DNA of 34,045 nucleotides from Candidatus Staskawiczbacteria bacterium RIFCSPHIGHO2_02_FULL_43_16 (GTDB lineage: Bacteria > Patescibacteriota > Minisyncoccia > Minisyncoccales > Staskawiczbacteraceae), in the NCBI GenBank assembly GCA_001821935.1, contig MHOU01000012.1:114816-148860 (forward strand). The letters run 5' to 3'. The translations under genes and the position numbers were made by a program. Positions within the stretch are counted from its first letter, which is position 1; each line of letters opens with the position of its first letter. The notes under the pieces are model-generated. The model was not told where the DNA came from, searched no databases, and saw only the letters and a program-made list of their open reading frames with translations. Positions 23,475-31,857 of the stretch are shown one piece after another.

Positions 23475-23829
23475 GGGGATGCAAGATTCGATGATTTGTT
23501 CTTTAAAACAATGCAAGTCCAGTATTCTAGAATCTGGTAAAACTTCTAGAAAAAACATATTTGCCAACTTTAACTTCGGTTTTAACCGGCAACTAGCTCC
23601 CGCTTTCGCGTAAGCTACATCGCCCCATCAACTCCTGATAGGTGGCCAGCGGTGTTATACATCAGGATAGATAATTATTTTAGCTTTAGGATAATTATTG
23701 AAACTAATAAAGATCGGGCATTAGAATTTCGCACATCTTTTATCTAATGCCTTAAACCAAAGATACGCTACACTTGTAGATTTGTTTTTTAAGAGCTTTT
23801 CAGACGAGGATTCAAACCCTCCATCTCCA
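23475..23829 (+). ncRNA. ssrA: Transfer-messenger RNA; tag reading frame 23563-23613 encodes ANFNFGFNRQLAPAFA*
   Basis: 5' GGGGATGcaagattcgatg can pair with 3' CATCTCC; T-arm-like gaggattcaaaccctc near the 3' end; internal tag ORF from GCC 23563 to TAA 23611; located between smpB and infC. The 3' CCA appears not to be encoded. Confidence 0.9.
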
Positions 23830-23849
23830 CTTATAATTTAATTAACCAC

Positions 23850-30495: not shown

Positions 30496-30972
30496 CTAAC
30501 TAACCTCGTATGTGATGTTTTTTATTTTATACTTCGTTTTCTCAGGCGAATCAATTACCACCTCTTCACCAATTTTCCGGCCCATTAAGGCCGCCCCAAC
30601 CGGCGATTCGTTGCTGATTTTGCCCAGTTCGGGGTGAGCCTCCAATGTTCCCACCATGACAAATTCATCTTTCTTGCCATTTACCTCAACTTTCACCCTG
30701 GCTCCCAAATTCACAAAGACCTGTTTTTCTTTGGGCGGTTTTTTTATTAATTGATGGTGCTTTAAAATATCTTCCAATTTATCCATACGGGCGCGCATTA
30801 ATTCCATGCCTTCCTGGAAACTGACAAATTCCGGGTTTAAATCGTCAGATTCAACCATTTTGGGAGCCTCCTCATCAATGGCCTTGGTGTGTTCGGCCGC
30901 CACCAGCGCGTCATACTCTTTTTTTAGCTCCTGGAATTTAGCCTTGGTCAAATGAAATATTTTATTTTCCAT
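30496..30972 (-). CDS. greA: Transcription elongation factor GreA/GreB family
   Basis: FHLTKAKFQELKKEYDALV...NPEFVSFQEGMELMRARMDKLEDIL...ISNESPVGAALMGRKIGEEVVIDSPEKTKYKI. Start at MENKIF. Confidence 0.88.
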   Translation of the reverse strand: MENKIFHLTKAKFQELKKEYDALVAAEHTKAIDEEAPKMVESDDLNPEFVSFQEGMELMRARMDKLEDILKHHQLIKKPPKEKQVFVNLGARVKVEVNGKKDEFVMVGTLEAHPELGKISNESPVGAALMGRKIGEEVVIDSPEKTKYKIKNITYEVS

Positions 30973-31115
30973 ATTGATGGTTCCCCGGATTTTAGTATTA
31001 GTAAGCCTGTCGTTCATCTTATTTTAAATCCCATTGCGAGTCAATTCTTGGCAAATTTCCGCGCCGTGGGATAGTATTTATTACATCAAAATAAGACGGA
31101 TGCCCAATGTCTTCC

Positions 31116-31448
31116 TTACACCTTATAGACCCTATAACCCTCCCTGACTTTTTCTTTTACCTTTAGGCCTACCGAGATTCCCTTTTTAGCTTTTTTCAAA
31201 GGCTTATGGTCAAATTGCATGGAAACGACCGTTTGGTTAAAATCTGTGTTTTCCCCGCCCACAATCCTAATTTCATCGCCTTCGTTTAAGGGAGCCGACA
31301 ACGCAATCACCCCCACTTTAATGTGGTCAAAATAATGGGTTACTTTTCCCGCCAATTTTCCGAACTTTTGCACCGGCAATTTTTTGATTTTGGTTTTTGC
31401 TTTTTTGATCGGCGCTTTTTTTATTTTTGATTTGGTTATTTTTTTCAT
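31116..31448 (-). CDS. Small protein with EF-Tu domain 2-like fold
   Basis: GKVTHYFDHIKVGVIALSAPLNEGDEIRIVGGENTDFNQTVVSMQFDHKPLKKAKKGISVGLKVKEKVREGYRVYKV. Confidence 0.65.
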   Translation of the reverse strand: MKKITKSKIKKAPIKKAKTKIKKLPVQKFGKLAGKVTHYFDHIKVGVIALSAPLNEGDEIRIVGGENTDFNQTVVSMQFDHKPLKKAKKGISVGLKVKEKVREGYRVYKV

Positions 31449-31470: not shown

Positions 31471-31504
31471 AAAAAACCGCGCCATTGCAATGGCGCGGTT
31501 TTTT
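31471..31504 (-). terminator. Strong symmetric intrinsic terminator (candidate terminator of the 31722 transcription unit)
   Basis: AAAAAACCGCGCCATTGCAATGGCGCGGTTTTTT. Confidence 0.8.
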
Positions 31505-31722
31505 GCCTAACCACGAAACACGGTTAACCATTTACCTAATTTTTTATTATTAAAAAGATTGGGTGAAAGGTCAACTTGAAAGTGAAAAAGCTCTCCGAAG
31601 AAAGCTTTTGAGAATTTGTTTTTGGGTTGGGTTGGTGTGACGGGTTTTGGGGTGGGCAGATTTTGAAAGGTTCGGGGAACCAACTTTTTTCAAACGAGAT
31701 GTTTGTGAAAGTTGACTCACCC
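31471..31722 (-). ncRNA. Candidate structured non-coding RNA with its own promoter and terminator
   Basis: Outer helix GGGTGAGTCAACTT (31722-31709) with AAGTTGACctttCACCC (31577-31561); internal hairpins CAAAC-ATCTC-GTTTG, GGTTC-CCC-GAACC, and AAAGCTTTC-TTCG-GAGAGCTTT; flanked by promoter and terminator. Confidence 0.6.
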
Positions 31723-31724
31723 TT

Positions 31725-31752
31725 ATTTTAGCAAACCACAAAACCATGTCAA
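31725..31752 (-). promoter_or_regulatory. Promoter TTGACA-N16-TAAAAT for the candidate ncRNA
   Basis: Minus strand TTGACA tggttttgtggtttgc TAAAAT aaGGGTGAG. Confidence 0.65.
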
Positions 31753-31857
31753 CACCCACCCTGTGGATAAGTCAGGGAGCGCAAGAAACAGTTGCGCGAA
31801 CACTGATACCCAACTTACCTCTGCCGGAGGCAATAAATAAAAGGGTATAAAAGGGGG

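Follow-up and report, generated by a model that had tools for sequence, protein, structure and literature searches.

A stand-alone non-coding RNA gene of about 140 nt, here named RNA1, very probably occupies positions 31722-31584 on the minus strand of the window (the whole 34,045-nt stretch of contig MHOU01000012.1 that was analysed), with the architecture listed in Table 1. At the sequence level the unit has its own promoter and its own terminator, and ten homologues with the same layout and with paired substitutions support the suggestion of the first-pass annotation that a new small RNA is transcribed here from its own promoter. The terminator that had been assigned to it (31471-31504) and the length of about 250 nt were not borne out: the unit is about 139 nt long and ends at a UUCG terminator. 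The description as an orphan holds, as no Rfam family matches it. The genome that contains the window is 740 kb in size and is available in 12 contigs.

Anatomy, promoter and surroundings of RNA1

Transcription is predicted to start at about 31722-31719 and to end at about 31584-31585. The promoter TTGACA-N16-TAAAAT, already noticed on the minus strand in the first pass, was recovered at 31752-31725 as the top promoter match within 30-34 kb (11 of 12 positions), and its spacer TTTTRTGRYTTG is similar among close homologues. The gap between the consensus DnaA box and TTGACA is 8-11 nt in all ten homologues. The 5' hairpin of the window shows a z of -4.1 and a P(unpaired) of 0.28, and includes the CAAAC/GTTTG pairing reported earlier. 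The linker (C 42%, A 39%, G 5%) opens with a CCTTTC element (CCUUUC in the RNA), and GCUCUUUC stands after the hairpin in most homologues. Pairing predictions leave this C-rich segment single-stranded; a scan of both strands of the 34-kb window for 60-nt stretches holding no fewer than 25 C and no more than 2 G reported this one alone. The C-rich, A/C-biased strand and the UUCG stem described in the first pass were thus both confirmed. For the GGTTC/GAACC hairpin drawn in the same annotation the complementarity is present, but it competes with the 5' hairpin and is absent from the folds of the homologues. The listed open reading frame at 31571-31759 exists, and its start is indeed upstream of the transcription start site.

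Table 1. Features of the RNA1 locus (positions in the window) and of the RNA2 loci in related genomes
Feature	Position	Strand	Basis
DnaA box TTATCCACA, then GGG; 9 nt ahead of the -35	31762..31770	(-)	sequence; 10/10 homologues
Sigma-70-type promoter TTGACA-N16-TAAAAT, TG before the -10	31725..31752	(-)	promoter scan and homologues
Small RNA RNA1, about 139 nt	31584..31722	(-)	predicted; homologue comparison
5' hairpin, tiers GGG/CCC, GAGTCAACTTT/AAAGTTGGTTC and CAAAC/GTTTG	31674..31722	(-)	fold, covariation
Single-stranded linker, 64 nt	31610..31673	(-)	predicted; composition
Intrinsic terminator AAAAGCUUUC-UUCG-GAGAGCUUUU with U-tract (UUCG stem 31609-31586)	31582..31609	(-)	sequence, homologues
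Next promoter TTGACC-N17-AATAAT	31546..31574	(-)	promoter scan
Second terminator hairpin CCGCGCCATTGCAATGGCGCGG with T-run	31471..31504	(-)	sequence and fold
Downstream gene, 110-aa protein with EF-Tu domain-2-like region	31116..31448	(-)	
greA-like gene, next after the 110-aa gene	30496-31017	(-)	
RNA2 loci	L062:1939-2072(-), L051:1295-1428(+), L142, L145, L148-L153, others		

The first-pass annotation had described the unit as a single closed structured domain of 250 nt, from 31722 to 31471, with a closing helix whose arms are about 145 nt apart. The complementarity between GGGTGAGTCAACTT and AAGTTGAC..TCACCC is real, and the 167-nt fold (31556-31722; z = -5.2, 0 shuffles equally stable) makes use of the helix, but the whole 252-nt fold (31471-31722; z = -6.9, 0 shuffles equally stable) favours the local 5' hairpin, and no equivalent helix stands clearly above shuffles in any homologue. 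In the homologues the UUCG hairpin and its U-tract make up an intrinsic terminator. The 3' arm (31575-31556) lies past them, and part of it is included in the -35 (TTGACC at 31574) of the following promoter, so that a promoter would sit inside the supposed unit. A single closed domain is therefore scarcely credible. The RNA1 transcript probably ends at about 31584 and not at 31471, because the 3' terminator hairpin is common to all ten homologues. The strong hairpin at 31471-31504 exists as described, and is the terminator of a second short unit begun at 31574-31546, not of RNA1. In G001 the second unit is a different RNA at that place, and in G009 and G007 a new promoter is found about 20 nt past the RNA1 terminator.

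The named relatives of the 110-aa downstream protein belong to Candidatus Staskawiczbacteria, Nealsonbacteria and other Paceibacteria, which places the genome in the Staskawiczbacteria group of the Patescibacteria. Rfam 15 at gathering score gave a sole match in the window, a tmRNA away from RNA1 (23475-23832(+), 104.6 bits); ARAGORN missed the tmRNA there.

Homologues and conservation

RNA1 homologues were identified in 9 of the 13 genomes of the window's genus and in one genome of a sister genus, with one copy per genome; the other four genomes of the genus gave no detectable copy by BLAST, terminator pattern, synteny or covariance model. BLAST with the unit found little in relatives beyond the UUCG hairpin; its match in G009 lies behind the same TTATCCACA-TTGACA promoter and a C-rich strand. 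The homologue of G008 was gained by a terminator pattern search, and those of G001, G002 and G004 by reading upstream of the orthologous 110-aa gene. The covariance model R1, which comprises the promoter and the 5' hairpin, recovered the known homologues and added G010, G007, G006 and the sister-genus genome G023. The linker and the terminator are outside the model and are nevertheless present in every homologue, and therefore confirm the matches independently. Applied to 247 genomes of the order with an E threshold of 0.002, R1 found only the ten genuine members, the other matches that were read by eye being to the promoter alone; at E 5e-5 in 384 genomes of the class it found the window itself only. 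Reading through the other DnaA-box promoters gave no more RNA1 copies.

All ten members consist of a 5' hairpin of 47-53 nt, a C-rich, G-poor linker of 50-76 nt and a 3' terminator hairpin. The linkers contain 38-53% C and 2-10% G, with a predicted P(unpaired) of 0.80-0.99; that of the sister genus is U/C-rich, not A/C-rich. The 5' hairpin has z values from -3.0 to -7.7 in nine of the ten homologues and is weak in G001 (z -1.6), and in many of the hairpins the outer tier is separated from the middle one by an AA/GA internal loop (by eye). The letters of the linker vary among homologues while its composition and openness are kept, and so no seed or target is nameable. In the terminator stem, substitutions are paired between homologues (G-C to A-U), independently of the model. 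All covariation of the 5' hairpin comes from A4, an alignment fitted to the model structure, in which 18 double-change cells were counted versus 8.3 in shuffles (0/500) and 9 pairs versus 5.3 (2/500), every slid version scoring lower. As A4 leans towards the structure, this covariation is good, not final, evidence. The covariation check proposed in the first pass came out above shuffles on A4, but for six members in a plain MAFFT alignment RNAalifold returned the terminator hairpin only and no 5' hairpin.

Possible function and alternative readings

The absence of a fitting Rfam family, the lack of a kept reading frame and the differing downstream genes argue that RNA1 is not a 6S RNA, a peptide gene or a leader. 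The Rfam scan proposed in the first pass found no family over the unit at gathering or relaxed thresholds, and the best sub-threshold matches fall mainly on the terminator hairpin at 31471-31504. The 6S-like RNA polymerase regulator also considered there would suit the strong promoter, the stable folds and the dispensability of a chaperone, and 6S RNA (RF00013) is likewise a stand-alone gene of similar size range. RF00013 nevertheless has no match in window or genome at E 0.1, and all ten folds consist of two hairpins and an open strand, not a closed rod, with the closing stem and central bubble of 6S RNA absent; G003, a genus member without RNA1, carries elsewhere an RNA that resembles 6S far more closely. 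Such a regulator is highly improbable. Equally improbable is a short mRNA that encodes a small peptide rich in Pro, Thr and Lys, with the C/A-rich strand merely lacking stop codons: the window, G001 and G007 have open frames that resemble one another to some extent around FQKR, but no register is stop-free in all ten members, one member has stops in all three, and start positions are not conserved. The FQKR-region similarity follows from the conservation of the UUCAAAA hairpin strand. That RNA1 serves the downstream gene (greA operon) as a leader or attenuator is very unlikely. It does lie upstream of EF-Tu-D2-like/greA genes in six of the ten genomes, but in two others the gene behind it is nusA and in the last two the genes are unrelated, and a terminator and one or two more promoters intervene between RNA1 and the gene. 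The RNA of G003 (L234:1501-1632(+)) reaches 27 bits with RF00013, below the gathering score, and has GGGAG..CACCCAC motifs and a terminator; neither RNA1 nor RNA2 (see below) is detectable in this genome.

RNA1 would most likely act on other RNAs. In the proposed scheme its transcription begins at a strong promoter of the DnaA-box type, which is common in the order, and stops at the UUCG-type terminator of the unit. The 5' hairpin and the terminator hairpin would protect the ends and keep the C-rich strand of 50-76 nt open, as fold and composition suggest. This strand, possibly starting from GCUCUUUC, would pair with G-rich sites, most likely the ribosome-binding regions, of several mRNAs, and the pairing would lower their translation without Hfq. 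The GCUCUUUC element presumably resembles the anti-Shine-Dalgarno end of 16S rRNA. Several start codons of the window genome have no obvious Shine-Dalgarno sequence (by eye), which weakens a role in Shine-Dalgarno pairing. Hfq was detected in none of 36 genomes of the window's family, with a working positive control, and no match to Rho (TIGR00767) lies above the cut-off in the same 36 genomes. The paired matches of TIGR00767 below the cut-off are frames of about 460 and 510 aa, as expected of the F1 ATPase beta and alpha subunits. An Hfq-dependent small RNA and a Rho decoy were rejected on account of these absences.

The composition of the linker alone suits a protein-binding strand equally well. 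As a decoy or scaffold, the C-rich strand between two hairpins would bind and titrate a single-strand RNA-binding protein such as a cold-shock protein, ribosomal protein S1 or a lineage-specific factor, and the conservation of only composition and openness fits a protein that reads C-rich single strands. Rho, the best-known reader of C-rich, G-poor single strands, is absent, and the decoy is judged unlikely, if worth keeping in mind. Of the two, base pairing is favoured, since titration presupposes a protein partner still to be found. The preferred reading, in which an Hfq-independent small RNA with a DnaA-box promoter uses its C-rich strand to pair with G-rich sites on mRNAs, is given an even chance of being right; the base-pairing mechanism taken by itself is a plausible, slightly doubtful proposal, and control of RNA1 by DnaA, as suggested by the promoter sequence, is a tentative one. 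As read from the box, expression of RNA1 would track DnaA, i.e. the replication state. The full scheme of a replication-coupled small RNA, in which box-bound DnaA drives the synthesis of a C-rich antisense RNA and translation is thereby adjusted in a bacterium that lacks Hfq and Rho, is improbable as a whole.

Small RNAs that silence translation by UCCC or Shine-Dalgarno pairing are known; RsaE has a UCCC motif and RsaI pairs with Shine-Dalgarno sequences (PMC9266662). Like RNA1, RsaI and RsaE-RoxS of the Firmicutes are small stand-alone RNAs with their own terminators and an unpaired C-rich segment able to pair with G-rich Shine-Dalgarno regions. RNA1 differs in having no detected sequence relation to them, a longer linker with variable letters, a DnaA-box promoter, and its occurrence in another phylum, one without Hfq.

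A second RNA, DnaA-box promoters and significance

A different structured RNA of about 133 nt, RNA2, with its own promoter and terminator, precedes the 110-aa gene in most relatives. In many relatives it takes the same place that RNA1 has ahead of the EF-Tu-D2-like gene, but its structure is unrelated and pseudoknotted, with an invariant GGACA/UGUCC pair, and its spread is order-wide: of 247 genomes of the order, 77 carry it, all but one of them as a single copy. Its covariation amounts to 49 double-change cells versus 14.4. It has no match in Rfam and was not found in the window genome; matches of R2 outside the order were rejected as tRNA, judged by best match. G001, G010 and G023 carry both RNA1 and RNA2, adjacent to each other in G001, and because both occur together in these three genomes RNA1 is not a form of RNA2. 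RNA2 is possibly a housekeeping RNA of the order, and is perhaps more interesting than RNA1.

Of 196 genomes of the order, 82 contain the pattern TTATCCACA-N4..24-TTGACA, whereas the reversed control pattern had 0 matches among the genomes listed. In the 112 sites listed the gap peaks at 9 nt, with 74 at 8-10 nt. These promoters precede many different genes; by eye these include lexA-type regulators, ribonucleotide reductase, pilin-like proteins and helix-turn-helix genes. The RNA1 promoter is thus one of a set of this layout, and DnaA may bind at these boxes. Behind DnaA-box promoters of L018, L034, L035 and L037 a recurring leader-like structure, GAAGACCC..UUGAAAAU..AGGCCUUCUU, was observed upstream of a helix-turn-helix gene.

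The literature that was searched yielded essentially nothing on regulatory RNAs in Patescibacteria. RNA1 as a predicted small RNA gene restricted to its lineage is well supported by comparison, its mechanism remaining conjectural. A small RNA gene with ten homologues, in genomes where Hfq and Rho are not detectable, offers a concrete way into the study of post-transcriptional control in such reduced genomes. Through its DnaA-box promoter it is tied to an architecture that is apparently widespread in the order, and RNA2, an order-wide unclassified structured RNA, came to light in the search for RNA1; RNA2 and the DnaA box at fixed spacing may matter more than RNA1 itself. If the replication-coupled scheme were true, Patescibacteria would have an RNA regulon under DnaA control, with RNA1 as its first member.
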